Shown piece by piece: positions 26,197 to 51,706 of a stretch of DNA of 64,000 nucleotides (the first letter of the stretch is position 1; the number at the start of each line of letters is the position of its first letter). The DNA comes from Chondrosia reniformis (taxonomy: Eukaryota; Porifera; Demospongiae; Chondrillida; Chondrillidae). Position numbers and translations under genes: made by a program. The notes under the pieces are model-generated. The model was not told the DNA's origin. It made no database searches and saw only the letters and a program-made list of their open reading frames with translations. Location: assembly GCA_947172415.1 (NCBI GenBank), contig OX359189.1, positions 9,934,501 through 9,998,500 on the forward strand, written 5' to 3'.

Positions 26197-29100
26197 TTAT
26201 AGGTTACTGTACTCTGTGGGTTTGGTCAGAGCACCATAAGCAGGGTTCTCCTCAATCACCACTCTGTCCCTCATCTCACACTCTTCATACACTGGACCCT
26301 GCACCTGACCAAACAGACCAGATGAGGAGAGGGGAGAGGAAACAGTTACATAAGAGGGGTTGGACTGGAGGAGGTCAACCTCTTTAGAATCTACATCTTC
26401 ATACACCACCTCTTTAGTCTCTTTTATGCGACCTATTAAAGTAGTGAAAATTACTGTATGTATGTGTTTATGAATTTGTACTATACCTCATTGCAAAATT
26501 AGATATAATTAGTAATTCCTCTTCCATATTTCTGGATAGTTACTATATAAAATAAGTTCACAAACCTTTTTTAATTTTATTGTGTCCCATACATAGTCCA
26601 ATAACTAGTATGACGACTAGTACTCCTCCAACTACAGCTCCAATAACACCACCAACTATGGCTGACAAGGACTTAACTGTGCAGATAAAAATACTATTCA
26701 TATCATAGCTTATATTGTTATTACAGAAAGTTCTTACGTACTTCAGTTGAAGCAAACAAATCCATATAATAAGTAACAATTATATGTAGTCAATGTGAAG
26801 CTTACTTGTTATAGTGAACACGTCAGATATTTCAAAAGTTGAATTTCCAAACTCATTCTCAGCTCTCACATAAACCCTGTACTGTCCAACTGGTAACTCT
26901 ATATCTATCCTTCTCATTATCCCTTGACTTGGATCAGTAACTAGAACATCCTCCTCCACTTCTCCACTCTGTGCATTACCAACTGATTGATATCCAACAT
27001 ACAACCTCAGTAGTCCTCTAGTACCAGGATATTGGACTGTTACTGACACTGTTACTATTGCACCACTCACAGAATAGGTTGGTGTGCTTGGCTGAGATGG
27101 AGCACCTGTAGATAAAGTATAAAGTAGATATAGAAACGCTAGCTTATAGTATGTATATCATTATAATTATTTCTTCAAGCACTACCATTGACTCTACATA
27201 GTCTTACACACACCTACAGACACTGTGACACTGCTACCTGCTACAGTGACAGCGGGTCGGGACGGCTTAGAGGGGGTACCTAGTGGAGAGGGTGGTTACC
27301 ATGGTGATGACCTTCACACAAGAATGTAACCTTACCTATTAAAGGTGTTGTAGTCACACTTCTCATTTCACTTCCAAACACATTGGACACTGTAACTTTT
27401 ATAGTATACTCAGTACCAGCTACCAGACCTTCTACATAGATAATGTCCATGTCTGTGGTATTTCTAGTTAAACTTGCTTCACTAAAGTCTCCTCCACCAG
27501 TAGACACTTGTACTTGTATCTCAACAGGATTATTAGGATTCTGTAGTCCCAACTGTATACCAGCACAACATGTGTTGGGAGGAATAGCAGAGAGGTCCAG
27601 TGGAGTTGAGGGAGAAGTGAAGTTTGGAGGAACTATAAAAATGCATAGCACATGCAATACTTATATATAAGTATAGTATGTATTATACAATAGTCATGAA
27701 TAATTATGTAGTTTCACGTCTTAGTATGAATATAATATATAATGTACACTAACTTACAAGGTACAGAAAAGTTATATGAAACTGGTTCACTCATTCCAAC
27801 ACTATTTGTAGCAGTTATACTAGCACTGTAATACTCTCCTTTAGTTAAGTTGTCTACTGTTAAATTGTGAGTTATCAACTGAACTGAAAGAATAACCCCT
27901 TGAGATATATAAGCATTTCCTTTAATTGTAATCTGTAAAATAATATTGGATACATGGAACTTCAAATCTTCTATACAGATATTACTACAATATAAACTCA
28001 CCATATAACTTGTAACATTCCGTCCTCCATCAGTCAGTAGTACAACATCCACTGATAGAATAGTCAGTGAGAGTGCTTCAACTGATACACTCTCAATAAT
28101 AGGAACTACATAACAGACAAATACTCATATACCTCACTATACACTACATGGAACTACATCTCACATACCTGAGTCAGGTGTAGTAAAGGTATTGGCTGCT
28201 GGAGGACTCACTCCATATTCATTCTCAACTACTACTGTTACATTATACATTGAACTGTGCCATATTCCATCATCCATAGTTAAGGTCAATTGAGTTGAAG
28301 TTGTACTGAAGGACAAGTTGACAGTGTCATTTATCACTCTGACAGTGTAGGAGAGAGGTTGACTAGTTCCTCCATCATCAGATGGTACCTCCCAACTTAG
28401 AGTGACACTGAATGGACCAACATCATCAGATGTGATTTCTTGTGGACCACTTGGAGGACCTAATTGAGATTGAGACAGAACAGACAGAACTAAATGGAAG
28501 AATGTACATTACTATACATACATAAAACACTCACCCAACACATTCAGGAATGTTGCTATGGCAACACTCCCTACTTCATTAGTCACCATACAAGTGTAGT
28601 TTCCACTATCTTCACTTCTCTTCAGAGAAGAGACAGTTAAGATGGATCCACTCACTCCTTCTGTGATGTTCACTCCATCTCTCTCAAACATATAACTACT
28701 AGGTGGAGGATTGGCAGCTGATGGAGTACAGTTGAATGTGAATGTGTTCCCTTGTTCAATCTCCTCCATTCTCTTCACTTCAGTGAACTCTGCAACATCT
28801 GATGTGTTAGAGAGAGAAGGATATTGTTACATGTTACATTAAAGGTCACTTCATCAACTCACAGTACACATCTAGATAGAATGACACAGAGTCACTCCCA
28901 GCTAATGTAGTCACTGTGATGGTGTAGTTTCCACTGTCAGTACGAATCACATTACTGATCGTCAAACTTGTCAAGTCCACACTAAATCTTCCTCCAGTTA
29001 ACAAGACAGTCTCTCCATTCCTGGACACAATAAAGTTAACAAGTTCTGGATCACTGACTCCATCAACACTGAATGAGAAAGTAAATGTATCTCCTTCTAC

Positions 29101-29625
29101 TGAACTGCTGGTAGTTACAGCAGATGTAATGTTTGGAGGAGCTAGAGATATACAAAAGATGCATGAAAGTATCACGTGGTTTGCAAATAATGTATGTGAA
29201 GATGTACATTATAGTTTCAAAACCATCTCACACAAAACTGTTACAGTAGGTCTGCTCAGTTGTGGTTGGACAATAATGGTCACTCCATTATCATATCGAC
29301 AACCAACTATAGCTCCATCTAATTCCCTCGACACATTTGTGAATACAAGAGGAGAACCATATTCACTGCCAACAAACACAAGTGTACCTAGAACGGTTTG
29401 GTTATTGATTATTATAATATCGCCTCCACCCTTTGGAGGTGATATAAACCAGGCGACAGTAGTCCTCGCTCCATCGATAGTTGGAGTACAAGAGAGTTGA
29501 GCAGTTCCTCCTAACACAACAGTCACATCTTCTGTTGGAAAGTTATCGACTGACTGACCTGCAACTGACACAATCACTGATATCCAAATGCATATGACTT
29601 CAGCTATGTACGCTCTCAATGACAT
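26197..29625 (-). CDS. Gene F: three Ig plus four FN3-like domains, type 1 tail, 816 aa
   Basis: Exons (minus): 29625-29232, 29141-28863, 28798-28535, 28459-28169, 28105-28002, 27932-27758, 27632-27336, 27105-26806, 26676-26566, 26432-26197; sum 2,451 bases, in frame. Signal peptide and Ig1 share one exon; the same junction in K and I is an intron ending in the same gttgcag. Ig1 to about 131, Ig2 to 224, Ig3 to 312, FN3a to 409, FN3b to 502, extra FN3-like domains to 601 and 701, TM to 738, tail 739-816. The ectodomain (VDNFPTEDVTV start, FERDGVNITEG in Ig3) is of the K/I type. FN3a is of the B/D type, and the FN3-like block and tail are of the C type, so F is a mosaic. Tail motifs: VVYEDV, NPSYVTV, VYEECEM, NPAYGAL, TEYSNL. 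Confidence 0.87.
27214..27279 (-). other. Possible 66-base cassette exon or exon relic in gene F
   Basis: Between the two extra FN3-like exons lies a GC-rich segment bounded by AG and GTGTG. It reads TPSKPSRPAVTVAGSS, then VTVSV, in phase 1-1, resembling the first strands of the next exon (APSQPSTPTYSVSG). At 66 bases with symmetric phase, inclusion would keep the frame. It may be a truncated duplicate exon or an optional linker. Confidence 0.5.
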
Positions 29626-33619: not shown

Positions 33620-36321
33620 TTAAGAAGGCATTTCGTAAGTAACAACATCTCCTCCCTTGTCAACCATCTTCTCGGCTTTTCCCTTCTTTTGAGATCGAGT
33701 TACTTGAGATGGTACAGCATAAGAAGGATTTCGCTGTAACTCAACAGCATCCTTCATCTCCAAGACTTCGTATGTAACATGTTCTGGATGAGCAGGCTTA
33801 TCAGAAGGGAGATCTACAAGTTAAATATAAAACTCATCTCTCATATATACCGGTAGAATTATATAACTTCCTTAGCATCACATGCATGTCGGTGTACATG
33901 GTTGTGGTTGATTATCATGAGTGCACTTCCATTGGTAATTACAGTCACTTTCAGATCTGTAGCTCACTTTTAATGCCATAGTGATATCGATTGTAGCAGA
34001 TGAATATTATAGCTGTGGTCACAGCTCCTAATATTATTCCAAGTACTAGTCCCCCAAATGATCCAGCAAGTAGTGCGGTCAATGTGTAGTTAGAGGAGCC
34101 TGCTTGAATGATATAATAAAAACTGTTTAAAGATTTTATTTTGCAATAGCATATGCATGTATGTATTACATACAACTTCAGTTTGATGCAAATTTATAAT
34201 TTAACACTTACTAATTGCAGTCATGTTTTCAGTTACTGCAACTATATAAAGAAATAAAACAGTAAATGTATATTTCAGAGTTCATATACACATCTTGAAT
34301 CACTTACAAATCACAAATGCAATTTCCTTACCCATTACGTTGTGCACAGTAAAGTTTGATTGAAATGGATCACTCTCTCCAACACTATTTGTAGCAGATA
34401 TTATAATTGTAAACTTCTGTCCAATCCTTAGCATAAGATTTTCAATCCTCATTTGAGGAGATGAAGGAATGACTACATCAAAACTATAGTTACCTCCAAA
34501 AAGTTCTAGTATTACCTGTAAACATATGTATATACTATATAGACATTTTTTAATTTTTGTAGTTCTGTGATAACCTTGTTTTGTACAGAAGAATAACATT
34601 GAAATTGCATTCAAACACTCACAGAATAATTATCCACATTCTGTCCTCCATCAGTCAGTAGCACAACATCCACTGATAGAATAGTCAGTGAGAGTGCTTC
34701 AACTGATACACTCTCAATAATAGGAACTACATAACAGACAAATACTCATATACCTCACTATACACTACATGGAACTACATCTCACATACCTGAGTCAGGT
34801 GTAGTAAAGATACTGGCTGCTGGAGGACTCACTCCATATTCATTCTCAGCTACTATTTCCACTCCATATTGAGTGCTGTGTTGAAGGTTAGTCAGTGACA
34901 GAGTAGTCACTACATCTGATGTAGTGAAGGAGAGAGTGACAGTGTTGTTTGTGATGTTGATGGAGTACTTGATTGGTTGATCAGTTCCTCCATTATCGGA
35001 TGGTGGGCTCCAACTGATAGTAGCTGAGAATGGATGAATTTCATCAAATGTGATACTTTTAGGAGGTGTTGGAGAACCTATATGTATTAATATATAATAT
35101 TAGCTATCATAATAGAAATTAAATACCTATATTATAATAAAATTCACCCAACACATTCAAACATGTTGCTATGGCAACACTCCCTGCTTCATTAGTCACC
35201 ATACAAGTGTAGTTTCCACTATCTTCACTTCTATTAAGAGAAGAGACAGTTAAGATGGATCCACTCACTCCTTCTGTGATGTCTACTCCATCTCTCTCAA
35301 ACACATAACTACTAGGTGGAGGGTTGGCAGCTGATGGAGTACAGTTGAATGTGAATGTGTTCCCTTGTTCAATCTCCTCCATTCTCTTCACTTCAGTGAA
35401 CTCTGCAACATCTGATGTGTCAGAGAGAGAAGGATATTGTTACATGTTACATTAAAGGTCACTTCATCAACTCACAGTACACATCTAGATAGAATGACAC
35501 AGAGTCACTCCCAGCTAATGTAGTCACTGTGATGGTGTAGTTTCCTCTGTCATTACGAATCACATTACTGATAGTCAAACTTGTCAAGTCTACACTAAAT
35601 CTTCCTCCAGTTAACGAGACTGTCTCTCCATCCTTGGTCACTTTAAAAGTAGCGAGTTCTAGACTAGAAACTTCAGCAACACTGAATGAGAAAGAGAACG
35701 CTTCGTCTTCCACTGAACTGTCCATTGTAGTGTCAGATGTGATGTTTGGAGGAGCTATATATTATATTATATATAAATAAATATATAGCATAATACAGCC
35801 GATCATTATCTGTCTAGATCTGGTAATAAATCAACTCACACAGAACTGTGATGGTAGGTCTGCTCTGTGGTGATTGGGTGTGTGAATCTATTCCCTCAAG
35901 GTATCGGCAAGCAACTCTAGCTCCGTTAAAATCCCTCGAGATACTATCTAGTATAAGAGGAGAATGATACTCACTGCCAACAAACACAAGTGTACCCAGG
36001 ATGGTTTGGTTCATTGATATGACCATAGTTGAACCATTCGAAAGTGATATCAACCAGACGACAATAACCCTCGCTCCATTGACAGTTGGAGTGCAAGAGA
36101 GTTGAGCAATTCCTCCTAACGCAACAGTCACATCTTCTGTTGGAAAGTTATCGACTAACTGACCTGCAACTGAGGCAACGGAGCAGCCACGTGCACTTTA
36201 ACTTTAGTCGACAGACAAGACTAAACTACAAATACATATGTAAAGACGTTTTACCTGTAACTTTATAAATGGATGCGAGAACACTGAAAAGTAGAGCAGA
36301 CGTTAAAACAAAAGTGAGCAT
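33620..36321 (-). CDS. Gene K: Ig-Ig-Ig-FN3-FN3-TM receptor, ITIM-bearing type 2 tail, 621 aa
   Basis: Exons (minus): 36321-36255, 36163-35840, 35754-35476, 35411-35148, 35077-34790, 34726-34623, 34515-34332, 34241-34212, 34099-33968, 33813-33620; sum 1,866 bases, in frame. Signal peptide MLTFVLTSALLFSVLAS; Ig1 to about 130, Ig2 to 223, Ig3 to 311, FN3a to 407, FN3b to 503, short stalk to 513, membrane helix within 514-557 (LAGSFGGLVLGIILGAVTTA), tail 558-621. The tail holds HVTYEVLEM (VTYEVL is a full ITIM match), RNPSYAVP (NPxY) and VVTYEMP. The ectodomain is nearly the same as that of gene I on the opposite strand; differences I see include STMVIS versus STINLS in Ig1, N versus K in Ig3, and a few in FN3b. 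After the stalk exon the two genes are unrelated in sequence. K and I therefore look like a paired-receptor set. Confidence 0.88.
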
Positions 36322-36440
36322 TATATCGATCTAACGTTGACAATATAATGGTGTCAATCTACAGCTATACCCTAGCTTGTAATATACTAAGAAGCGATTT
36401 CCGTTATGTTCAATGGCAAGCAGCAATTTCCGTTAACGAT
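34200..36440 (-). repeat. Inverted duplication, left arm (gene K ectodomain)
   Basis: This arm is an inverted match to 43,234-45,450. It covers signal peptide, three Ig, FN3a and FN3b exons with all introns. The outer boundary by the 5-prime flank lies at cgttaacga (36,431-36,439). Similarity ends after the stalk exon near 34,200, just before the TM exons. Confidence 0.88.
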
Positions 36441-36898
36441 TCCATCATTGAGAAGAATAACAGTCCAGTCCATGCAAATTATAAACAAACAAACACATTA
36501 ATAAATCCATTTAAGTATACAAGATGATATACATTAGCTATGTCCGACACTGGAATCTCTTGACCCACATCTTCTCTATTGTTCTTGCTACTCCTTCCTC
36601 TTTCGCTGCCATTTGCAGGGTCATGCAGAGCTAGGTTATCTAGGATTAAAGACATTTGTGCATGCAGAAGGATTCGCAGAAGATCAAGATAAAGAAAAGA
36701 CAGGATCACTGATGAAGGGTGGAATTCCCAGAAACGGCTGTCTGACCCAGTGGAGAAGAAGATGAAAGAAGGAAGAAAAGACTCCAGTATCTTCATCCAA
36801 AGCTCTCTTCAGGTTTAGTTCCCCTATAGGCTCTTTTACAGAATAGGCATAGCATGTAGGAAAATGGTATCTTAGATTGTTCATGCTTATATCATTCA
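36441..36898. repeat. Inverted copy of the dispersed repeat, between K and the orphan TM exon
   Basis: About 36,640-36,840 is the complement of the repeat found in introns of A and J (gctctcttcaggtttagttc, agactccagtatcttcatc). The minus-strand frames at 36,479-36,899 come from this repeat and show no recognised protein. Confidence 0.55.
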
Positions 36899-37060
36899 AG
36901 CAGGCTCCTCTTACTACACATTGACCACACTTCTTGCTGGATCACTTGGGGGACTAGTACTTGGAATAATATTAGGAGCTGTGACCACAGCTATAATATT
37001 CATCTGCTACATTCGATATCACTATGGCATTAAAAGTGAGCTACAGATCTGAAAGTGACT
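36899..37060 (+). pseudogene. Orphan transmembrane exon, inverted copy of the gene K TM exon
   Basis: After attcaagcag the plus strand reads LLAGSLGGLVLGIILGAVTT and continues IIFICYIRYHYGIK, then a GTGAG donor. This is nearly the same as the gene K TM exon at 34,099-33,968 but on the opposite strand. No other exon of such a gene is adjacent. It is probably a leftover from the rearrangement that made the K/I inverted pair. Confidence 0.8.
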
Positions 37061-37369
37061 GTAATACATAAATTACCAATGGATCCGGAAGTGCATGCCT
37101 GTCTAGATCTAACATCAACATTTCAGCATGAAATCAAAATTAATATGATAATACATGTTTCGTCTATACATACAGAACATCTTATCAGAAACATGCATGC
37201 ATTACATTATTTGCACAAAGCAATCTGAATACCTACAAAAGCTTAAATGTAGAAATTCTATGTAATACTGAAGACTTCAACATCTCCTTTTGTATACTTT
37301 AAGATTCTACATGAGTGAAAGGTAATAGTTGTTAATTTCTTTAAATCAATTTTTTATTTAGATTCTTAC

Positions 37370-38236
37370 TTTTTTTAGCTACCACAACACACACTATGGC
37401 AGTTATAGCAATCGGTAGAATAACAAGCACAACACCACCAATGGCAATACCAACAATAGCCCCAGTTGGGAGTATTGTTGGATCATCTACAAAAGTGAAG
37501 AAAACACATAGACAACTTGAAATTGATAAAATGAACAGTACAGGGTATAGTAGATATACAGTAAATTAGTTACAGTATTGCTATATAGAAACTGTAAATT
37601 TTAGCCTATATGGGAAGTGAAACAGGACAAAAAATATTTTAGATTCTACATACTATAAATACTTCATACTAGAATATCTGTACTCAAGTGTCACAAGTGG
37701 TATAGTGACTGACACATATGCAAAAGTACCAAAATAAGACAGTGATTATATGGAAAGTCTAATCTACAGAGGTGGCATTCTGAAATTTACATAAGTGGCT
37801 TAACCATTACATCACTTCTGTGTTTGGGTGCATCATCATGATAATGATGCACAATAGTGCAAAGCTTTATGTGATCCCTCCATTGTTTTGAAAGTTTCTT
37901 GGCAATAATTTTTCAGCCAGCAGATGACTAAGAGCTCTTAATTAAAAACTGGTGTCCTAAAATTTAGTCCCTTAGTAAGTTAAAGTAGTAAGTGCTAACT
38001 TACTACTTTATGCATTCAAATCTAAGAAAAATTTGTTTATAGGGTTTAAGTTTTGGATACTATCATGAAAGAAAAGGAATAAAAATAAAGAAAACTGGAA
38101 GTAGGGCTATAGCTGTACATAATAGAATAAGGATTTCTTCTAACTTCGTTGAACTTATCTTTTGAAAGATGATTCTTTCTGTGCATGTTAAAAATGCTTT
38201 ATTGGTTTTGTAAAGGTGAAAAGGTGTTAACCGTGA

Positions 38237-38288
<52 letters not shown>

Positions 38289-39158
38289 CAAGACATCAGC
38301 CTCAAGCTGCGTCCAAGATGCACTGTATGCTGATGACGTGACCTTGATTGCTGAAACTAGGAATGAGCTACAGCATATGATTACCACCCTGGACAAGGCA
38401 TGTGAGCGATGGGGAATGCACATCAATGGCGAGAAGACAAAGGTCCTCACAGTGGGTGAGACAGCCAATCAACCACCACTGAAGCTCAAAGGCCAGCAGC
38501 TAGAGGAAGTGGAATCCTTCCCCTACCTTGGGAGCGAAGTGTGTCAAACTGCCAAAGTAGAAAGAGAGGTGATGGTGAGACTGAGGAAGGCTGGTACAGT
38601 GTACCAGATGTGGAGATGGAAGGTTTTTCGAAGCCGTAATCTCAGCAAGACCACCAAGCTTCGTGCTCTCCGCACATTAGTGATGCCAATCCTTCTGTAC
38701 GGTGCGGAGACATGGCCTGTCACACAGCAAGACATCAGGAAGCTGAGGACCTTCCACATGAGATGCCTCCGTGACATCCTGGGAATCACACTGTGGGACA
38801 TGCAAAGGAATGCTGACATCTTGAAGGTGACTGGAGAACTGCCAATTGATGAACAGCTGAGGAAGAAACGCCTGCAGTGGTTTGGTCATGTGAAGAGAAT
38901 GCAAGATGAACGCCCCCAGAAGCAACTCTTGAAGTGCAGACCAAAAGGGAAGAAGAGACCACAAGGGGGAAACCCCCTGAGATGGATCGACCTCATCAGC
39001 AGAGACCTATCCAAGCTGACCAACTGGCAGGAGATGGTGAAGGACCGTGCCACATGGCGAGCCGCTATCCACCACTCCTAATCTGCCACCATGTGATAGT
39101 ATCCTGTTTCTAGATCCCGCCCAACATCCGCAATGGATAAGGAGTAAAGAGGAGGAGG

Positions 39159-39210
<52 letters not shown>

Positions 39211-41805
39211 GTTAGCTAACTCCTCCTAAACTACAGCAGCAAACGCTGCCTAACCTACACGGATTACGGAGAACGGCCTGGAAAGTATCCTCCATGGGTC
39301 AAAGAAGCTCGTCCTACCGTTGTTCTGGTGTTCTCCTTCCACTTCCGGCTTTTTCCTTCGCGACGGACAGCCATATTTTCTAATTATCGCTTCCGGTTGC
39401 TGGCTCCCTCGCAACATAGAAGCAACGATTCGATGATTCACTCTATGCTAGTAATATTATAATAAATATTGAATAGGCAGGCCATGTTTTTTGTGCCATC
39501 CCTACTTAGAGAGTACAGCACTCTCTGATGGCAACAAGCTAGAATGCCTCAAATTAAAGTGGCTAAACTTCTTATAATGTATTTAATAACCATCTCCTGG
39601 ACCAGGATAAATAGTTTCTTAAGATTAAACTTTAAAATTGCAAATGTTATTATTTTAAACACAGTTATGGCTAATTGTTATAAAAGGTATACCTAAGAAA
39701 CTAAGGACCATGGTTTCCCTGTAGAAATATATGTAGAATAAGTCTTTGAAAGAGATACTGCAATATAACTAACCTTCAGGCATTCTTTCCGAAATTCCCA
39801 ACTCAATAATAAATGTAGGACTCCTTGTGCCATTTCCAAAGGTAGCAGTATAAAGGCCTTGCTGTTCCTCCGTAATATTAGTGAACTGCAGTCCTCCATT
39901 ATCACCAAAAATAATCATGACATTTGGAAATGTAGAGTTTGTAAGGTTGGATGGTGTTCCACCTTGAAATGTCCAGCTAGGCTCTGGAATTGGAGGATTT
40001 CCTCTGTCTGAGATGTTATAAGTCACAGTCAAATTCTGACCAATTAAGCCTGAAAAATTTGTAAATACTCTCTTTGGAGGATGAATACGAGCATTCCCTA
40101 TATGAATACATATGTAAAATATAATAAATATCGGATATATGTATAACTAAAAATCGTGACATATACATAACTAAATACCAATATTTATATTAAATATCAG
40201 ATAAATAGCAGAAGGAGGTTATGGAGAAGAAAGTTAATAAGGAATTTGAAGCGAAACAGCTATAGAAGAGGATCTATAATATTCCTTTATCACACTATTG
40301 GCCCAAAGCAGTATGTCCTATAAAGGTGATGATAAGTAAACACGAGTAGGCCTACTGGTGATATAACATTTATCTCTAGTTTAATTGTGAAATATAAGGT
40401 TTATAACACCCCAGATATCACCCGGTTGCCCCGGTAACGTGATATATAGGTATATATCATGAATGGTTTATGAAGTTAGGCATATGTCCACTGTACCCAG
40501 GGCAAATATGCTTAAATTATGCTACTTCTGTATGCATGATTTCATCCAGAAATGCTTGTAAGGAGGGCTGGGGGCAAAAATAGACTTTTAAAATTGTTAC
40601 AGGAGCGATGTGTGCCTTGATAAAATAGTTAAGGGGCAACCTAAATCCTACATGATCACTGTGGTTTCAAGTTTTCTAGATGTCCCAGTCACTGTTGCAG
40701 CACTGCCATTCCCTATACTTCAACATATCATTTTTAAATGCTTTTATCTTTGATCATATGCATTCTTTAATTACTGAACATAGCGGAAGTGAGGTCTTAT
40801 GAAGTTACAAAAGGACTACGAGGCTATCATACTCTATACCCTATAGGGACAACATTGAGGCATCAAACAAAGGTGGGCATTTCAATTTAGGTAACATACT
40901 GGATGTGTGAAAATGGCTGAAATGTTTTTCATTGTCACAGGCCCAGAGATCAAGTTCCTATCCTATCCTATCGGGGATAATGTCCATTGTCTTGAAATTA
41001 CGAGTTTAAACTTTCCTGCAGCTACATTTTTTATTGGAAGAGCAGGGACTAGTACGTAATTTCACTTCAGAACACTCAAACAGATATTTTATTACCATAT
41101 ATGGGCATGTATATTGTACACAAAAACGGTAGTTTCAAATAAGCAGCCATTTTGTTTTCTCCAGTTTAACCTGCAGTGGATTATTGCATCATCTAAGCTT
41201 TACAACACATTAGCTCTCTTCATTCCAACCAAAGAGTATAAAAAGCGAGGTCATGAACTGTGTTCACAACTAGTTAGATAGTTTGTCTAATAATTAGTTT
41301 ATACATGTCTTCTTAATTAGTGGTAATTCTCTTTATCAGAACAAACTGATAATCAATGCAATCTACAAAGAAAGCTACTCACAGAGTACATTTAATTCTA
41401 GGACGCCTGATAATTGACTAGTTAAAGCGATTTCACACTGAATTCTCTCTCCACTTTGATTCCTGTAAACTGGTCCATATGTAAATCTATTCCCCAGAGG
41501 AATGCCTTCTCCTCTCAGGTCAATAGGTGTGTTATTAACTCTTACAGCAAAAGTCTGTCTAGGCTCTATGGTACAGTTAAAGACAATATTTGACCCTTCC
41601 TGTACATTCTGTCTTCCACTGGGAGTTATATCTTGCGTAAACACAGGAGATCCTAGAAGAAATTAGGGGTACACACCTTAAACACTGTCAACAATAATAA
41701 CGCTTTTAAAGTATATAATTCTTCAAACTAGTCCATTTTGCGAATATTGTATCGCTACTGCTAACCTTGTATGATCATAACAGCTAGCACTACAAGGAAC
41801 TTCAT
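37370..41805 (-). CDS. Gene H: short two-Ig receptor, no tail found (partial)
   Basis: Exons (minus): signal peptide 41805-41766 (MKFLVVLAVMIIQ), Ig1 41652-41383, Ig2 40097-39774, TM 37486-37370. All phases are compatible (1-1). Ig1 has FNCTIEP and GERIQCEI as the cysteine-bearing strands. Ig2 (PPKRVF, NLTVTYNISD, QQGLYTATF) lacks an obvious second cysteine. The TM exon reads GAIVGIAIGGVVLVILPIAI and ends AKK|GTAAG. No cytoplasmic exon with tyrosine motifs is visible between 37,370 and the start of K at 36,321. The tail may have been lost in the inversion, or the transcript may read into the intron. The 2.3-kb second-last intron holds the reverse-transcriptase fragment. The ectodomain is unlike the other genes. 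Confidence 0.65.
38239..38287. repeat. (GT)n microsatellite
   Basis: About 24 GT dinucleotides directly precede the reverse-transcriptase fragment and mark its truncated 5-prime end. Confidence 0.97.
38288..39081 (+). mobile_element. Non-LTR retrotransposon: reverse-transcriptase C-terminal fragment
   Basis: An open frame of about 264 codons ends in TAA at 39,081. It contains LYADDVTLIAE (the YADD catalytic motif of the RT palm), GMHINGEKTKVLTVG, LLYGAETWPVT, RTFHMRCLRDILGI, RLQWFGHVKRM and a C-terminal DRATWRAAIHHS. These are standard landmarks of metazoan non-LTR endonuclease/RT proteins. The N-terminal endonuclease and RT fingers are missing. The frame upstream of 38,288 is only the GT repeat read as Val-Cys. 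The fragment lies in an intron of gene H, antisense to it, and is of a different family from the two other RT fragments. Confidence 0.9.
39161..39204. repeat. (GT)n microsatellite
   Basis: About 22 GT units end the retroelement fragment on its 3-prime side, matching the repeat at its other end in strand and phase. Confidence 0.97.
40098..41382. other. Large intron of gene H
   Basis: 1.3 kb between the two Ig exons, AT-rich, with no recognisable exon, RNA gene or repeat. Confidence 0.5.
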
Positions 41806-42289
41806 CCTTTCGGACATACGGTATAAGCGTCTCTTACGCGTGATTAAAATTTGCTTGTCACGCGCAAAGCTCGGATACGATGTCATCAGGTGACCGGACG
41901 GTATGATGTTTAATTTTTCATTGAGGCAGCATCATGGTCCGAATTCTCTGTTGATATAAACAATCCGATATTCATTTCATATATCTAGGTTGTGTGCATG
42001 CAGAAATAGAGTGCATGCGAGTTAAATTATATGTAGCAATGGGTTATTATGATTACTGTTTCATATTAAATATTATATTTTATATATTTTTATCCAGTAA
42101 ATGCATGTTATTGACTGTACGTACATGATATTGAACATTAGCTATGCCACAAGGGTGTTGTATGTTTAATGCATATATAGCTAATGCTTCACTGGGTAAC
42201 ATCCTTTTCTTGTTTCTGTGCTTTTTATGCCATCCCTACATCTTTTTGTCTCGGCACCAAAGTGCCACCAGCTGATTATCTATAGCTAA

Positions 42290-43200
42290 GAAGCATGCAG
42301 ATAGTATTCAATACAGCTTTAGGGGGCTTTCTTCCTTACGTTCCCAATCACCCTTTCTACATGTATATTCTGACATTCGCAATTCTTCTGGTTTGCTCGA
42401 CTTCTATCCCGATCAGTTGCTTTTTCCTTTTGTGAATGCTGGTAACTTTATTGTATAGCACAGTACAAACCAACACTATCCTTTATGTCAAATCCACGAT
42501 CCGCTAATATGGTGTCTAATAGGTTCTTTAAAATTCCACAATTCTCTGTTAAATGTTTATCACTTACTCTCCCTCCCCATCCAGTAGAAATGAAACTAAC
42601 AATGCCATGTGATGTTATTCATATTAAATATTTAGCAGTATTATGATGTTTGTATGAAGAGTATATGTCAGTGACCTAGCAAGAAGTGCTTAGGGTCGAT
42701 CAATGAAGATTTCAAAACAGTCAATAATGAATACACAGTCAGGACAATGCTTTCTAAAATCCATGGGCATAGTCTTCTTTAATTTGCTTCTCTCCGGCCA
42801 TAAAATGAAGTGCTTCAGCCTCTTGTAGAGTATATATGTCCAGTTTATCAAACCAGTATAGTATCTAACTTTTTCATTGTCGTCTTCATTCAATTCTTTT
42901 GATTTCTCTGCTTCTTTTCAGCCCTCAAAGCAGCATTCTTCGAGGCTCTTGTAATTTTATGCAATTTTGCTTAAGCTCTTTCAGCTGCACTTCTGCCATG
43001 GCTAAGCTATCTATCTATCTCAGTCTCTGTCAACCGAGAACTTCTAGTGATGGTGTCACTACAGATGGTACTTCTATACACGTGTCCCTTCCCATTGTTT
43101 CAGCTTCCTGTTGTCTTTTAGTGCCTTTTGTAAGTGTTAGAGAAGCCTCAATCGGAATGCCGCTTGGATACTGCTCTTTGCCAGGATTATTAAGTTTCCT
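42290..43200 (-). mobile_element. Decayed DDE transposase (DDE_Tnp_4-like)
   Basis: On the minus strand, 42,893-42,690 reads [19 protein letters not shown], then a WP.R..L...MP..FRKHCPD segment, IIDCFEIFI and DRP. After frame breaks, about 42,590-42,300 reads [17 protein letters not shown], then [18 protein letters not shown] and HVERVIGNVR. These match the landmarks of DDE_Tnp_4 transposases (IIDC.E, GGR.SD, DRGF, HVER). Several frame breaks show it is dead. A coiled, charged region upstream (42,950-43,150) may be its N-terminus. It lies in the H/I divergent interval, and its 5-prime edge abuts the boundary of the inverted duplication (43,234). Confidence 0.8.
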
Positions 43201-43233
43201 TGTATGTAACTATAAACGTTTTCTCAAAGCCAA

Positions 43234-45450
43234 ATCGTTAACGGAAATTGCTGCTTGCCATTGAACATAACGGAAATCGCTTCTTAGTATATTACAAGCT
43301 AGGGTATAGCTGTAGATTGACACCATTATATTGTCAACGTTAGATCGATATAATGCTCACTTTTGTTTTAACGTCTGCTCTACTTTTCAGTGTTCTCGCA
43401 TCCATTTATAAAGTTACAGGTAAAACGTCTTTACATATGTATTTGTAGTTTAGTCTTGTCTGTCGACTAAAGTTAAAGTGGCTGCTCCGTTGCCTCAGTT
43501 GCAGGTCAGTTAGTCGATAACTTTCCAACAGAAGATGTGACTGTTGCGTTAGGAGGAATTGCTCAACTCTCTTGCACTCCAACTGTCAATGGAGCGAGGG
43601 TTATTGTCGTCTGGTTGATATCACTTTCGAATGGTTCAACTATAAACTTATCAATGAACCAAACCATCCTGGGTACACTTGTGTTTGTTGGCAGTGAGTA
43701 TCATTCTCCTCTTATACTAGATAGTATCTCGAGGGATTTTAACGGAGCTAGAGTTGCTTGCCGATACCTTGAGGGAATAGATTCACACACCCAATCACCA
43801 CAGAGCAGACCTACCATCACAGTTCTGTGTGAGTTGATTTATTACCAGATCTAGACAGATAATAATCGGCTGTATTATGCTATATATTTATTTATATATA
43901 ATATAATATATAGCTCCTCCAAACATCACATCTGACACTACAATGGACAGTTCAGTGGAAGACGAAGCGTTCTCTTTCTCATTCAGTGTTGCTGAAGTTT
44001 CTAGTCTAGAACTCGCTACTTTTAAAGTGACCAAGGATGGAGAGACAGTCTCGTTAACTGGAGGAAGATTTAGTGTAGACTTGACAAGTTTGACTATCAG
44101 TAATGTGATTCGTAATGACAGAGGAAACTACACCATCACAGTGACTACATTAGCTGGGAGTGACTCTGTGTCATTCTATCTAGATGTGTACTGTGAGTTG
44201 ATGAAGTGACCTTTAATGTAACATGTAACAATATCCTTCTCTCTCTGACACATCAGATGTTGCAGAGTTCACTGAAGTGAAGAGAATGGAGGAGATTGAA
44301 CAAGGGAACACATTCACATTCAACTGTACTCCATCAGCTGCCAACCCTCCACCTAGTAGTTATGTGTTTGAGAGAGATGGAGTAGACATCACAGAAGGAG
44401 TGAGTGGATCCATCTTAACTGTCTCTTCTCTGAAGAGAAGTGAGGATAGTGGAAACTACACTTGTATGGTGACTAATGAAGCAGGGAGTGTTGCCATAGC
44501 AACATGTTTGAATGTGTTGGGTGAATTTTATTATAATATAGGTATTTAATTTCTATTATGATAGCTAATATTATATATTAATACATATAGGTTCTCCAAC
44601 ACCTCCTAAAAGTATCACATTTGATGAAATTCATCCATTCTCAGCTACTATCAGTTGGAGCCCACCATCCGATAATGGAGGAACTGATCAACCAATCAAG
44701 TACTCCATCAACATCACAAACAACACTGTCACTCTCTCCTTCACTACATCAGATGTAGTGACTACTCTGTCACTGACTAACCTTCAACACAGCACTCAAT
44801 ATGGAGTGGAAATAGTAGCTGAGAATGAATATGGAGTGAGTCCTCCAGCAGCCAGTATCTTTACTACACCTGACTCAGGTATGTGAGATGTAGTTCCATG
44901 TAGTGTATAGTGAGGTATATGAGTATTTGTCTGTTATGTAGTTCCTATTATTGAGAGTGTATCAGTTGAAGCACTCTCACTGACTATTCTATCAGTGGAT
45001 GTTGTACTACTGACTGACGGAGGACAGAATGTGGATAATTATTCTGTGAGTGTTTGAATGCAATTTCAATGTTATTCTTCTGTACAAAACAAGGTTATCA
45101 CAGATCGAACTACAAAAATTAAAAAATGTCTATATAGTATATACATATGTTTACAGGTAATACTAGAACTTTTTGGAGGTAACTATAGTTTTGATGTAGT
45201 CATTCCTTCATCTCCTCAAATGAGGATTGAAAATCATAATCTTAGGATTGGACAGAAGTTTACAATTATAATAACTGCTACAAATAGTGTTGGAGAGAGT
45301 GATCCATTTCAATCAAATTTCACTGTGCACAACGTAACAGGTAAGTGATTCAAAATGTGTATATTAACTCTAAAATATGCATTTACTGCTTTACTTCTTT
45401 GTATATAATTGCAGTACCTGAAAACATGACTGCAGTTAGTAAGTGTTAAA
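43234..45450 (+). repeat. Inverted duplication, right arm (gene I ectodomain)
   Basis: Inverted match to 34,200-36,440, exons and introns alike, starting at tcgttaacggaaattgctgc and ending just after the stalk exon of gene I. Confidence 0.88.
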
Positions 45451-48364
45451 CTGTTTATTGCATTATTAAATATACATATTGTTGGTCTTACATTTTATAC
45501 ATACTATTATACAATACTATTGTAATTCTATTGTACAGTATATGGTATCTACATAAATATATTCATAACATTATTCCAGCTCAGTCTACATCAGCCATAG
45601 TTGGAGGTGTTGTTGGAGCAGTTATTCTAGTTCTAATAATCATCTTGATCATACTGCTCCTTGTACTGTATTATTTGAAAAGAAAAGAAAGAAGTGAGTG
45701 AGTGATACATTATTAGTAAGTTACTCACTCAATGATCAGCAAACAGCTTCCTAATTGGAATGGTTGCATCCCGTTGATCATGAGTACATTTACTGTATGT
45801 TTAAAATGTGGAGCCTGAAAATAATTTTGAGAATTACATACCTATACCTTAAGGTTACTAATTTTAACAGGTATTAATTTTAGCAAATTTAGCGAGCAAT
45901 CCCTTAATCGCTAAAATTAGTAGCCTTAAGGTAATATCAAATCTCCCACAGGAAATAAAAAAGCAAAATGGAGTTACACTATTTTGATGTAGTTTTTAAG
46001 ATATATGTATATAGATAAATTACCTTAGTATACATATACTAGCAGAGAAGCCCATCACAGCTACATCAGACAGGTCATTGATAGTTAACAAATAAATGGT
46101 TTAAGTTAGTACTGGGAAGGTTTGGTCACAATGCCCATTTTCATCCGGCGGACATGTTGATCAGCATGTAAGCATATATGTACTGTACGTCCGTCATGTT
46201 CGTGAGTTATGGAGGGATTTCGAATGGAAGACTTTGGGGGTGGAGGAACATATAGATAAAATGATGTGCAAGTTAACAGTATACTCTTCAAAACTTCAAT
46301 TATGCACTTATAAGAGGCTCTAAGAGTTACAGCAGGAACCTATGTACATACGTACAAGAGAAACTGTTAAAAAACCTATTAGTTGTTGATTTCTGAGGGA
46401 TCAGTGTACAATACATTCAATGTTACCATGGCAGAATACTGTTGTGATATATGTGTAAGGTATATGTTGCAAACCTTAAATGAATTATTCCATGTATTTC
46501 TAATTCAGAAATCTACATGATACAATTATCAATTATCACATGATCTGATACTTTTTGTAGGAATAACAAAGGAGTAAGTGAAATATGAAATGCAAAGGAT
46601 GCAGATGGGACTTCGCCTCCAGAAATATTCTTTAGTATACTCCCAACCCCATCAATGTTTTTGCAAATTTATTATTTATTGTTCATGTGTAATACACAGC
46701 TGTGCACAGTGATATGTAATTTAGTATTTTAAACATTGCCTTCAAATGCTATAGGAATGAGGCAGGTCTACACTTATCTAATGAAAGAGAGGTAAAGAAG
46801 GCAGAACCAATTGTCTCAATGTATGCTGACACTATACATGATGAACCAAATAATGAAAAGTCTGAGACTAGCAATACCAATAAAGAGGTGAAGCGACACA
46901 ATATTACATACATACGTACAGTATATATAGTAAAGAGGTGAAGTGACACAAGTATAAGTATATATAAGAAATGCATAGTCTAATTGTAATTTTATTAAAA
47001 CAAGTGTAGTTATGTATATAGTTTGACAGTGTAATAGAGTGTACCTGTAACTGTGACCTACGTAATATGTGACTTATTCTGGTCTTAGACTGGTACATTA
47101 TTAAATTTCTCATTGTTCTCTCCTTAGCTCCCTAAAGTAATAAAGTACATTTGTAGATATGCAGGGATTGTACATATGTAACAATAAACAAGTCAATAGT
47201 TTTAGCTGAAAGTAGTTATCTTTCATTACTACACAGGCAGAGACTCACACCATCATCACTTAGGGATTGAATGAATATTAAATGTTCTTCAGCTCTTCTC
47301 TCCCTATTTATATACTGTGCTTAGAGAGCTTCCTGCTCTTGTGTGTCTTGTGATGAAGTGACACAAGCTAATATACATATAAGAAATAATATATAATAGA
47401 CTAATAGTATGTACGTATATATTGAAAACAATTGTTAGGTATAGTTTGACAGTCTTAGACATTATACTTTTACATCCCTTCTCTTCTCTCTTAAAATAAT
47501 AAAGTGCATTTGTAGATACATTTGCAGGGATTGTACATATATGTAACAATATATTCCTTATCTTTGAAATGGTTCATCTTTTAGTCAATTGAGTGTCTAG
47601 GGACCCAATTGGTTCTTTTAGGTTTGGGGTCTTCAGCGCTCAAAAGACTAATAGATGAACCATCTCAAAGATACGTTTGGTGCAGTTAGAAGAATTCCCT
47701 GTCATCTAATATATATATTCCCTTTGCAGCACCAATCTATCTAGATACACATATATGATCATAAAAAGCATTCAATTCTTAAAATTTGATGTTTTACAGA
47801 ACCTTGCTTCCATTTAGCACTCCTCTTAGTCTATACTATTATCCACTTGCCCTTAGTACTATTAGTACATATGTGTACAGACATATATATTGACTCACCT
47901 TAAGCTACAGTAAGTCACTGGTTTCATCTACAAGCAGTTGTCTTTAGTTACTAAACTATTCCTCAGCTCTTCTCTCCCTATTTATATAAGTGTGTAGAGC
48001 TTCCTGCTCTTGTGGTGTCTTCATTTCCGACTTCTTTTCCGCTTTCATTCTCTCTTGTCCACACACAGTGTTGGTTTTACAGCAACCATATAGGAACAAC
48101 TATAGTTCTATGAATTCATTTGATGAGCTTGTTACTTGGTTATGAATATGTAGTTCTTATGCTGTTATTCCATGCAACTTCAATGTAAAATAGTCTTGTG
48201 ATTGCAGCTATAACAATAAAAGAGACATGTCCTTCCCACTTCTCCATGTACAGGGACTAGTGTATGCAGATTTAGCATTTTCAAATGCACCAGTAAAGAA
48301 ACCTCCAAAAGATGTTAAACAAGAAGAGGCAGTCATCTACTCTGAAGTTAGAGTGGCCAACTGA
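43353..48364 (+). CDS. Gene I: Ig-Ig-Ig-FN3-FN3-TM receptor with YADL ITIM tail, 634 aa
   Basis: Exons: 43353-43419, 43505-43828, 43914-44192, 44257-44520, 44591-44878, 44942-45045, 45157-45340, 45415-45438, 45580-45693, 46561-46573, 46755-46887, 48254-48364; sum 1,905 bases, every phase compatible. Signal peptide MLTFVLTSALLFSVLAS; Ig1 to about 130, Ig2 to 223, Ig3 to 311, FN3a to 407, FN3b to 503, membrane helix within 512-549 (VGGVVGAVILVLIIILIILL) followed by YYLKRKER. A 13-base microexon is needed to keep the tail in frame. The tail holds VSMYADT (Y about 577), LVYADL (Y602, ITIM) and VIYSEV (Y627, second ITIM), 25 residues apart. In vertebrates such paired motifs recruit SH2 phosphatases; here an inhibitory role is inferred. 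The ectodomain is nearly that of gene K. The long 3-prime introns contain two hairpin repeats. Confidence 0.85.
45845..45933. repeat. Inverted repeat (hairpin element) in a gene I intron
   Basis: taccttaaggttactaattt at the left and its near complement ending ccttaaggta at the right, around a loop of about 35 bases. MITE-like. Confidence 0.8.
46561..46573 (+). other. 13-base microexon of gene I
   Basis: gaataacaaagga sits between a ttttgtag acceptor and a GTAAGTG donor. With it, the phase 1 end of the TM exon joins the phase 2 start of the next tail exon without a stop. Without it the next exon reads a stop after about a dozen codons. The codons read through the junctions as RITKEN. Confidence 0.7.
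47561..47671. repeat. Inverted repeat (hairpin element) in a gene I intron
   Basis: tctttgaaatggttcatctt and its near complement gatgaaccatctcaaaga bound about 111 bases. The inner part is less paired. MITE-like. Confidence 0.75.
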
Positions 48365-51300
48365 GTGGAACTGGAGGGATAAGAAGGAATGAGATCAACT
48401 TAATGTTGTTAAAAGTGTGTATTAACTCATATTTTAACCCCTTGCTTTCAACTTTGTATCCACATCCACATGTAATGTGTGAGGAACTAATTAACTAGTT
48501 AGTATGTGTGTGTGTGTACATATTATATACAATGTCAAATCACTCATGATTTAGAGAATGCAACATCTCACAAATGCATGTAATTGAGTGCGATGACAAT
48601 TCAGAGTTCCTTCAAATGAGCTACTTTTCAATTCTTCAAATAGTATGCAATTACTGGATCTTAATTAGTTACAGCAGCTCTCTGCAGTATCAACAACATA
48701 CACTCTTACATAGTGAATCCACTACAATGTAATGCTATATACATGTGCACAGTCCAAGAAATGCGTCTCATATTAACACTGTTGTACACATACAGTCTAA
48801 AGAAGGTCAATATTTTACATTGTCATTGCATAATTCAGAACAGAAATTATTGTTAACTTTAAAACTAAAACTACATAATTCACCATCACAATTTAATGAC
48901 ACTGAATATTCATTGTAAACAGTGTTATTTTCAATGTTACAACTTAAAATAACTTTGTGTGTAAGAATTACTAATTATTAACAACTTGTTTACCTTAAAA
49001 CATATTACAGTACAAGAATTTCTATACAGAAACCCCAAAATTAAATATTCTTATTAAGCTTTGCTGCACAGCACTGGACAGTCATGCATTACCATACCTC
49101 TGCAAGAGAAGAGTGCAAATAGGACAATTATTATCATTATCTGAGGTCTTTTATCAACAGAATAATAAGATGTTGATTTCGTGGTAGTCAGTTATATGTA
49201 CGTATATGGATATAGTCATTCACATGCACATGTAGTTCTAAAGTGTGTATATACATAAGATGCGTTCATGTTTAGTCCAAGCGCCTGTGTGAAGCCATAG
49301 GGGAAACCAAACGTTTACTGTCACCTGACCGATTAAGGGCAGGATTTTGGAAAATCCCTGAAGAAGCCACTGGTTAGCTCAGACGTAATCATCATTTCTC
49401 AGTTGTCACGATTGTCACAACTGATACGTAAAGGAAGGTTGATCTCGAATGAAGTGAGTTATTTGAGTGTCTAGTGATGTAGTGCTGCTGTACAGAGTCA
49501 CGAGTACACTCATAGTGATGACATGTTTGTAGGAGAAAGGTTTCCTACTGAACAGACAATGAGAAGACTCAATTTCAAAGTTTTCAGTTAACTGCTTAAC
49601 TTTCAATTTCACTGTACCAGTATAGCACTAAATTGAATAGTAAACACAACTTTATGGTTTCAAACAATTCCGTAACAGTAAACATGAAGCCAATAACAAT
49701 ACTAGTAAAGACCATTTCAGCACATTTCAGCAATTAAGGATATATTTGGAATGCCTTACTTCTGTTGAATCACGTGACCCTTGTATTGTATCACACGGGT
49801 GCGCAATAATAAACCATATTAGACCTTCTCTATACTTAGTATAGAAGATCTATCTATAAATAAACTAGTATTGAGAAATGAAACTGTGTAAATTAGTAAA
49901 TGTTGACCTATGTACAAGGTTTCTGTAAAACGTCTTCTTATTTAACTACTGTTGACTTACTGGCATTGTAAAAGAATGTACAATATCAGGGTGTGTCCAG
50001 TAACTAAGGGGTGTGTCCAGTAACTAAGGGTGTGTATTCAGTTTCCTCTTTCCTACTTCATGTGTGTGTGTTTTCCAAGAACCATGTATGTAGTTATTAA
50101 CTTTCAGAAATATTATGTATAATTTATTCATAGTTAGTTTTATACTAATGAATAAATGTCCCCTTTTGGTCAGGAGGAGGTACCTCCAGTCTGAGTTCGA
50201 GGATCATTTGTTTGTGTGGTTCAGTTCCCAAGGGAGTAGGTAGTAATGACTGTTCCAGTAATGAATGTAATGAATGACCATGACAGTCTGTTCTCAATTT
50301 AAATGCACAAAATATTAAGACCTTTTTATGTAACAGAAAATGCAAAATTAATGCATATCTTTTAGATAGTATATGGAACTGTCTAAATATGATAATAAGA
50401 TAACAACAGGTGATGTATGTATAGTCTATAATGGTATTGCTATTGTGTAGTAATCTAAAACAGCTGTTCATGTGTATTGAACTCATCAATAATAATAAAT
50501 GAATAGCTTACTATATTGATGAGTGAATGTAGTCATATATTTAATCTTTCAAATTCTACTATCCTTTGTTATGAGTTGTAACTCCTACTCATATCTTCTT
50601 GCATTCTTCATTATTTGTGTATCTGTAGTAGTTTGAGTACATCAATGGGTTTAGTGTGGAAATGGTTTATCAGTTGATACTGCTAGGTTGTTTCAACCTA
50701 CACTAGTAAGTATACAGTCCGTCTTCTGTTGGTACAGTAGGAATACACTTGAATATTAGAATTTAGTTACTCTGTCTGTTACTATAAATAGTCACATCCA
50801 TATATAGAAGTAACCAGTATCTTTCCAACTTCCCACCAGACTGCTCATGTGGAACATTATATTACCACAACCTACCTACCCTCTATGCCAAGATGACCAC
50901 AGATATAGTGTTGGTAGTAGTTGTGAGATCTGTTCCTATGTAGCAATACTAACACACTACATGTAACATTGTTCTACTGTATCAGTACAAACTAGTTCAT
51001 TTTTATGTATACACAATATAGTAACATATTTAAGAGGATGAAAACTATTACTGTAAAAGGCTTCAATTCAAATGGTCAAAACATGATATATGAAGTGGTT
51101 CGTGTATACAGTGGATTATGTACAATGGAACTATTGTATATACTGATATCATTGGGAAATTGACACAAATAGAGTGACAGATCATTTTATCCTACAAATA
51201 TCTGAATATAAACCTAGTAAATCCTTAATCCAATTATGCAGCTTCTATTTTATACATAATATTAGTAGTACTAAAGGGTGTACCAATGTTACAGACATAC

Positions 51301-51700
51301 ATACTATAGTATATGTACACTCTCAGTACACTATATAGTAGTTGTTATTTCCATTAGCTGACAGTGTGTATGTTATTCATGTTATTCATGTTATGCGTCT
51401 CATTTTCCATATAGGTACATGAGGTGTTATTGAATGTTTAAAAAGGTTATTACCAATTACGATATTGTTATGATAACTTATTAGGTTTAGGGGAATGTTT
51501 TGCCAAAGTGACTTTGCCCATAACATCATGTCTGCTCTAGCAGGGTCTGTATGTGCAAGACTTGAGCGATCCTTTTTCTTCTTTTTCATTTCATATTCAA
51601 GATATAACAATTTACTTTTTGAAGGCAACCAGTAGTGTACATAGGATACAATTATCAATATACCAAACACTACTAATACAAATCATTTTTCCATGTAACC
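48365..51700. other. 3.3-kb stretch without recognised genes
   Basis: AT-rich sequence downstream of gene I. Short open frames (for example minus 50,145-50,489) have no recognisable motif or splice context. A 19-base text (gtgtgtccagtaactaagg) is directly repeated at about 49,992-50,031. Nothing else is seen. Confidence 0.6.
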
Positions 51701-51706
51701 TTCTTT

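Follow-up and report, generated by a model that had tools for sequence, protein, structure and literature searches.

A receptor gene pair with one ectodomain and two tails

Within 64,000 nucleotides of the genome of the sponge Chondrosia reniformis (contig OX359189.1, here C1, positions 9934501-9998500; this is the window, to which coordinates given without a contig refer), two receptor genes, K on the minus strand and I on the plus strand, lie head-to-head with their arms 6.8 kb apart and join nearly the same ectodomain to two unrelated tails. Our preferred reading, held with modest confidence, is that K and I are members of a sponge receptor family in which ectodomain and tail are exchangeable modules, with one ligand coupled to two outputs.

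Self-comparison aligned 43233-45450 (plus) with 36441-34200 (minus) at 97.15% identity over 2248 columns, with 28 mismatches and 13 gap openings. The original prediction held that exons and introns match from the 5' flank to the stalk exon, after which the transmembrane (TM) and tail parts switch abruptly. Alignment of the K arm with the reverse complement of the I arm bore this out and established the inverted copies as real. The eight shared exons, which encode a signal peptide, three Ig domains, two FN3 domains and a stalk, are equal in length and phase. On the 5' side the likeness reaches 120 bases ahead of the start codon, and on the 3' side it stops 12 bases into the last shared intron, before the TM exon; the two tails gave no alignment (score -8). 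Hand-built models of both genes, drawn from splice sites and phases in the sequence alone, give open frames of 619 (K) and 634 (I) amino acids, GT-AG introns throughout, and the stops at 33620 and 48364 that had been predicted. Exons below are from these spliced models, tail motifs from motif reading and motif search, and arms from self-comparison.

34200..36441, minus: K arm of the inverted ectodomain repeat
36255..36321, minus: K exon 1, signal peptide, start ATG at 36321; identical to I exon 1
35840..36163, minus: K exon 2, Ig1 (N-terminal Ig-like); 4 mismatches to I, all within 5 bases
35476..35754, minus: K exon 3, Ig2; holds the best I-set stretch
35148..35411, minus: K exon 4, Ig3; Pfam Ig_3
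34790..35077, minus: K exon 5, FN3a; Pfam fn3
34623..34726, minus: K exon 6, FN3b first half
34332..34515, minus: K exon 7, FN3b second half; 9/184 mismatches to I
34212..34235, minus: K exon 8, stalk
33968..34099, minus: K exon 9, TM exon, alpha type, membrane stretch uncharged
33620..33813, minus: K exon 10, alpha tail with VTYEVL, NPSYAVP and VTYEMP, stop
43233..45450, plus: I arm of the inverted ectodomain repeat
43353..43419, plus: I exon 1, signal peptide
43505..43828, plus: I exon 2, Ig1
43914..44192, plus: I exon 3, Ig2
44257..44520, plus: I exon 4, Ig3
44591..44878, plus: I exon 5, FN3a
44942..45045, plus: I exon 6, FN3b first half
45157..45340, plus: I exon 7, FN3b second half
45415..45438, plus: I exon 8, stalk
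45580..45693, plus: I exon 9, TM exon, beta type
46561..46573, plus: I exon 10, putative micro-exon RITKE joining the phases; stretch 89% alike in gene S (below)
46755..46887, plus: I exon 11, tail part 1, SMYADT; 90% to S
48254..48364, plus: I exon 12, tail part 2, LVYADL and VIYSEV (tandem inhibitory motifs, 25 residues apart), stop
36887..37065, plus: inverted copy of the K TM exon and flanking intron, 97.2% by sequence comparison, 0.45 kb upstream of the K arm

Mismatches between K and I in exons 1 to 8 number 0/67, 4/324, 0/279, 3/264, 0/288, 2/104, 9/184 and 2/24, with 0/120 in the 5' flank, and exact runs reach 567 and 561 bases. The protein differences foreseen in the original prediction are present (MVI/INL in Ig1, read as STMVIS/STINLS; N/K in Ig3; four in FN3b), and two more fall in the stalk exon. 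A Pfam search of K and I returned Ig_3, I-set, ig, Ig_2, V-set and fn3, with the best stretches in Ig2, Ig3 or FN3a, and no kinase or phosphatase domain. We assigned Ig1 and the split FN3b from their sequence pattern; there are two I-set stretches, and the search table leaves their membership of Ig1 ambiguous. The inverted K TM fragment is probably a rearrangement scar. A repeat at 36665-36884 precedes it, with four further copies in the cluster at 88-90% identity.

A footprint of recent exchange between K and I

Cluster-wide comparisons cover 255.5 kb of the main cluster without N (C1:9874501-10130000); 9.69-9.87 Mb, 10.13-10.21 Mb and a cluster on C4 lie outside this stretch. The divergence between K and I is uneven. 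Between the 5' flank and the end of intron 6, 10 of 1920 aligned bases are mismatched and introns 1 and 6 add 10 gap bases; seven of the ten mismatches are grouped in two clusters, one spanning 5 bases and the other 13. The part beside the TM exon, exons 7 to 8, has 18 mismatches in 280 bases, with 26 further gap bases in intron 7 (Fisher 1.8e-10).

The differences were also compared with other members of the family. The 14-base Ig3 variant of I occurs at 10 places in the cluster, I included, and that of K at three, K included. Two genes at C1:5.84 Mb are informative for exon 7: X1, another ectodomain with a K-type tail, and X2, a K-like ectodomain with a gamma tail (tail types are given below). 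Four neighbouring I sites agree with X1, and at three of these K agrees with X2; at three further sites that differ between K and I, I agrees with neither. Within the 255.5 kb, no other gene has the Ig1 variants of K or I. Part of the differences are therefore variants circulating in the family. Together, these patterns support homogenisation of the K and I ectodomains by recent conversion or crossing-over. An earlier proposal that K is the ancestral combination, with K-like tail and ectodomain together at 5.84 Mb, was withdrawn when reading of that stretch revealed two genes, and we claim no direction of transfer.

A paralogous block joins the same two tails to another ectodomain

A second head-to-head pair, M (minus, C1:10017.5-10020.4 kb) and S (plus, C1:10031.0-10036.3 kb), lies about 49 and 53 kb to the right of K and I. 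The M and S ectodomains form an inverted repeat of 93.9% identity over 1470 bp, 10.4 kb apart. The two blocks are collinear, each about 24 kb. Their left neighbours are 91.7% alike over 1578 bp and their right flanks 84.9% over 2411 bp, and a 97-bp spacer piece is common to both. The K and M tails are 88.2% identical over 255 bp, and the I and S tail exons and introns 81-95%.

27996..29569, minus: ectodomain of gene ch22, K-like (82%), gamma (NPxY) tail downstream; 91.7% to C1:10014848-10016399 in the paralogous block
49308..51648, unstranded: right flank of the duplicated block; 84.9% to C1:10037179-10039453

At the protein level, the ectodomains pair within blocks. Ig1 matches at 105/108 (K-I) and 98/102 (M-S) and at 19/100 in each of the four cross pairs; Ig3 at 86/87 and 86/90, with cross pairs at 29-31%; and FN3a at 96/96 and 89/97, with cross pairs at 53-54%. 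FN3b1 is 94-100% identical in all six comparisons. The tails pair across blocks, at 46/63 (73%) for K-M and 68/80 (85%) for I-S, the other four pairs reaching 22-27% with negative scores. The TM parts follow at 19/42 (K-M) and 24/36 (I-S), other pairs reaching 16-34%. Thus, two ectodomains and two tails occur in all four combinations.

Divergence does not readily account for such dissimilar ectodomains next to such similar tails. If the ectodomains were replaced, at least two transfers would have occurred since the block duplication, at least one of them across strands. M matches a further gene, ch16 (C1:9929975-9931911), at 94.3% over 1975 bp, a longer match than that to S, and the M/S ectodomain may therefore derive from ch16. 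The left neighbours present the reverse case, with ectodomains 91.7% alike and different tails (ch22 gamma, ch32 alpha). The block comparison indicates that both tails already stood head-to-head before the block duplication, and that the pair is therefore older than its 97% identity.

Tail motifs, constraint and candidate effectors

Three main tail types occur: alpha (..YEEC..NPSYAVPSQ..VTYE.PS, with variants), gamma (VVYEDV..NPSYVTV..VYEEC..NPAYGAL..EYSNL) and beta (YADL..IYxEV). TM type was dropped as a tail label since a beta-like TM precedes an NPxY tail in some minus genes; the tail exon was used instead. SHP proteins read tandem immunoreceptor tyrosine-based inhibitory motifs (ITIMs) at a spacing of about 24-26 residues. 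Of the 11 beta-type exons seen, five were motif-searched (I, S, P1p, g37 and P4p), and all five tails have two ITIM or switch (ITSM) motifs, 24-26 residues apart; two such motifs occur in 121 of 20000 shuffles of the I tail.

The K tail has 64 residues and three tyrosines. NPxY is a phosphotyrosine-binding (PTB) domain motif and YxxP an SH2-binding motif, and NPSY with YAVP is present in all seven K-type alpha tails that were motif-searched. The original prediction gave K an NPSY plus VTYEVL tail. Both motifs are there, but VTYEVL, although it fits an ITIM, calls for caution: only K among the seven K-type alpha tails has one (the others read YEEC, YEDC or YEIC), and when the K tail is shuffled, 2295 of 20000 versions contain one such motif. 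On the other side, VSYEEI, also compatible with an ITIM, is the usual reading in the more distant alpha-like tails at 10.04-10.13 Mb, and ch36 and the gamma tails have one ITIM-like motif each. The NPxY tails are therefore not free of such motifs, and by motif content the beta tails are set apart by the tandem ITIM pair together with the absence of NPxY.

The tails are under constraint. The ratio of nonsynonymous to synonymous change (Ka/Ks) is 0.19-0.59 in seven alpha comparisons and 0.22-0.47 in four beta comparisons, those with P1p being near synonymous saturation (pS 0.60-0.66). For Ig1, K gave 0.96 against ch22, 0.70 against ch32 and 0.67 against X2, which hints at relaxed or positive selection too weakly to claim it.

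As candidate effectors, SH2 and phosphatase exons alternate on the minus strand of contig C3, and we read C3:9106400-9116600 as two putative tandem SHP-2-like genes of the SH2-SH2-phosphatase order. A linker fragment there matches PTPN11/SHP-2 best (2.6e-38), and one SH2 exon matches PTPN11 at 9.3e-34. Separately, arrays of many tyrosine phosphatase exon matches at C6:0.6-1.3 Mb and C13:1.65-1.96 Mb form a large family of their own.

Modular combinations and strand sorting across the cluster

The 255.5 kb hold 34 FN3b1 markers, and the anatomy of one ectodomain on two tails recurs in pair P1 (head-to-head, 90% over 1622 bp), M/S and pair P4 (tail-to-tail, 92% and 95%); P1 and P4 each comprise one NPxY-type and one ITIM-type gene. 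Close ectodomains are found with all three tails: M (alpha), S (beta) and ch16 (gamma) are 93-96% alike in Ig1, and ch9 (alpha), ch11 (beta) and ch3 (gamma) 85-92%. K (alpha) and I (beta) have a more distant gamma relative in ch22 (62% in Ig1). No TM exon was found for ch16 in the marker scan of the 255.5 kb.

Tail classes are sorted by strand. A motif search of frames of at least 30 residues placed 9 of 9 YADL tail exons on plus and 32 of 33 NPxY tail exons on minus (Fisher 2.2e-8); several copies stem from recent block duplications and are thus non-independent. Degenerate tails that have lost their motif, outside these counts, keep the strand of their class: three NPxY-type on minus (C1:9999229, 10081107 and 10088290) and two beta on plus (10080711 and 10065080). 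An absolute rule is contradicted by an NPxY tail on plus at 9967462 and by those at C1:5.83-5.84 Mb, likewise on plus. A plus gene with Ig domains at window 30419-33075, between ch22 and K (chains 23/24), carries the sole plus NPxY tail counted in the 255.5 kb.

Matches were also sought to the 5' part of each of ten plus genes or remnants. For four, the best-scoring match is the adjacent minus gene: P1p (95.7%), I (98.3%), S (95.1%) and P4p (93.0%). For S, distant ch16 is slightly closer over a shorter stretch (95.6%), and for P4p a second neighbour likewise (95.8%, 212 bp). Five plus genes at 10.05-10.12 Mb match one another best, and one remnant matches only by a shared Ig2 piece.

Proposed mechanism and alternatives

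We propose that recognition by the ectodomain and signalling by the tail reside in separate modules that can be exchanged, and that a recent exchange across opposite strands made the K and I ectodomains near-identical with each tail staying in place. Head-to-head crossing-over between the arms would invert the intervening stretch and trade 5' parts and promoters between the tails; alternatively, conversion would copy one ectodomain over the other. Neither route would shift a tail to the other strand or delete a gene. An exchange that spares tails and strand would give matched ectodomains, fixed tails and strand-sorted tails, as seen here. With no more than 120 bases before the start codon in common, the arms differ in their distal promoters. 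Both genes would be expressed and bind the same ligand. I would recruit an SHP-type phosphatase through its two ITIMs and damp signalling, and K would recruit PTB and SH2 adaptors through its NPxY and YxxP tyrosines, with a different, perhaps positive, output. A wider version, possible and rather doubtful, is a strand-sorted combinatorial paired-receptor locus, in which tandem-ITIM receptors are transcribed in one direction and NPxY receptors in the other, ectodomains cross between strands by conversion or by inversion, and new specificities would keep both an inhibitory and a non-inhibitory reader.

The strong rival is neutral modular shuffling, which we judge less likely. Frequent recombination in a homogenised Ig3-FN3a-FN3b core would make K and I its latest random product, with no common function needed. 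Third-party variants at the K/I difference sites speak for it, as does the likeness of otherwise dissimilar genes around FN3a and FN3b1 (mostly 85-98%). So does a tree of Ig1 from 31 genes, on which the tail labels need 15 changes, as in shuffled labels (mean 14.9; 130 of 200 shuffles as low). Taken by itself, the beta label shows slight clustering (6 changes against a shuffled mean of 7.9; 38 of 500 shuffles as low). The tree rests on a short alignment, with 7 of 26 inner branches starred and a long-branch warning from the program; it omits six chains with an Ig1 match but no tail label (5, 6, 23, 24, 40 and 41) and counts as alpha ch0 and ch1 (variant alpha tail) and the P4 partner. On this evidence, tail class and Ig1 are uncoupled, and selection for pairing is therefore not separated from random modular exchange. 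Against shuffling stand the constraint on the tails, the two ITIMs kept in all five beta tails examined, the strand segregation of tail classes, and the adjacent opposite-strand gene as best-scoring 5' match in four of ten cases.

Beyond the tree, several observations weigh against our preferred reading. The available text of PMC3533184 defines paired receptors as including a partner with a charged TM and a short tail. K has an uncharged TM (no K, R, D or E in its membrane stretch, nor in that of I), a 64-residue tail and no immunoreceptor tyrosine-based activation motif (ITAM); none was found in the tail set that was motif-searched, and ITAM adaptor genes were not searched for. The first tyrosine of the g39 beta tail is lost (LSADL), and the NPxY-type partner in P4 reads NLSY. 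Pairing is loose in the plus sub-family at 10.05-10.13 Mb, which matches minus genes at 83-87% over about 380 bp. Beta (ITIM) tail exons at window 24251-24361 (plus) and C1:9922872-9922982 (plus), with no intact plus ectodomain found upstream, are either orphan tails or pseudogenes. Each ectodomain was given the tail exon that comes next downstream on its own strand, by order rather than by transcript, and that K and I share a ligand, signal in opposite ways and are co-expressed is a prediction.

A simple recent inverted duplication onto a foreign tail exon, with no conversion, is improbable. The high identity, inversion and short distance would fit it, and the inverted K TM fragment nearby suggests rearrangement. 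However, the divergence is uneven, and the block comparison puts both tails head-to-head before the block duplication. The original prediction had left recent duplication and ongoing conversion between the arms side by side; the uneven, patchy divergence supports conversion and disfavours duplication alone. Very improbable is an artefact in which the assembler joined two alleles or orientations: inverted repeats of this length are a known assembly hazard, but this is a HiFi assembly without N in the window or the surrounding 255.5 kb, the arms differ by 2.8% with unlike flanks on both sides, and the M/S block has the same gene order.

Locus and assembly

The genome analysed comprises 117.38 Mb in 15 contigs; C1 is 10.409 Mb, and cox1 sits on C15 (17451 bases). 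The published assembly odChoReni1.1 has 14 chromosomes, with chromosome 1 at 10.41 Mb and the mitochondrion at 17.45 kb, built from HiFi reads, according to the available text of PMC12181767.

The FN3b first-half exon (K: 34623-34726) has 79 matches genome-wide, some partial; most are 88-100% identical in protein, far above adjacent exons, reflecting either strong constraint or a conversion hot spot. Minisatellites of 23 bases lie at window 2888-3218, 51706-53932 (about 96 copies) and 57866-58079. A direct duplication of 91% inside the window (3433-6293 and 58133-61037) belongs to a larger cluster duplication. An inverted repeat at C1:10058581-10061077 has arms of about 920 bases, 98.4% identical, around a 659-base spacer.

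Comparison with known receptor systems

Paired receptors are known from vertebrates, and the original prediction saw their design in K and I. The anatomy supports this, with a shared ectodomain, two tails, head-to-head order and recurrence in P1, M/S and P4; the charged-TM, short-tail partner does not appear, and random exchange is not separated from pairing. As regards other parts of the definition in PMC3533184, the ectodomains are alike (97% of DNA, Ig1 105/108, FN3a 96/96), the genes are clustered (6.8 kb apart, amid 34 FN3b1 markers in 255.5 kb), and I has a predicted ITIM tail (LVYADL and VIYSEV), as have S, P1p, g37 and P4p. We therefore describe K and I as like paired receptors in anatomy, from their sequence, and do not class them as members.

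The closest system is SIGLEC11/SIGLEC16 of primates, as described in the available text of PMC5701461: a head-to-head pair about 9 kb apart (6.8 kb for K/I), with about 3 kb of the N-terminal region homogenised by gene conversion (2.2 kb for K/I), unlike tails and one inhibitory member (here I, by its predicted ITIMs). In contrast, Siglec-16 activates through an ITAM adaptor, whereas K has an uncharged TM and a long tyrosine tail, in a sponge rather than a vertebrate. A PDB sequence search returned, among the best 60 of 100 matches, titin, DSCAM, RPTP, ROBO, NCAM2 and contactins on top, one CD22 Ig fragment (6.8e-7, query residues 208-292) reflecting generic Ig similarity, and no specific relation to Siglecs. 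A search of 5.8 billion proteins, scoring only the 8000 candidates that shared most words, gave four weak matches (best E 3.7e-13, 27% identity over 39% of the query). A predicted Ig1 structure was a poor model (mean pLDDT 43.9, 5 sequences) and was not used.

CEACAM, KIR, LILR, PILR and CD300 are, in the parts of PMC3533184 available, clustered immunoglobulin-superfamily (IgSF) receptors with similar ectodomains on different tails and concerted evolution, like the K/I cluster. ITAM coupling separates their activating from their inhibitory members, whereas the sponge cluster has three main tail classes (alpha, beta and gamma), each with its own tyrosines and, within the 255.5 kb, linked to strand. 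Among invertebrates, Botryllus fuhc FF/FcoR and Hydractinia Alr are likewise IgSF clusters with ITIM-like motifs, and such motifs on recognition receptors are reported back to cnidarians (available text of PMC12065747). According to the same source, neighbouring Botryllus genes pair, but they belong to two different families rather than placing one ectodomain on two tails; FcoR has the order V Ig, sushi and two C2 Ig domains, whereas the Pfam search of K and I gave Ig and fn3 families only. In sponges, Geodia has IgSF adhesion molecules and receptor kinases with Ig domains, discussed for adhesion and recognition (available text of PMC11999971). Unlike these receptor kinases and the Ig/FN3 receptor tyrosine phosphatases, K and I have no kinase or phosphatase domain. 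No sponge paired or ITIM receptor was found among the top-ranked open-licence literature, which does not imply absence from print.

Matched ectodomains on ITIM and non-ITIM tails, in a sponge genome with SHP-2-like genes, would place paired logic in one of the oldest animal lineages; on the wider strand-sorted reading, paired opposing receptors would stand at the base of animals, by deep descent or convergence. K and I would be a concrete candidate for sponge self recognition or for communication with symbionts. They also suggest a testable idea for the head-to-head order shared with SIGLEC11/SIGLEC16: exchange between inverted copies swaps ectodomains and spares tails, and the inverted order would be a device for such swaps without gene loss.

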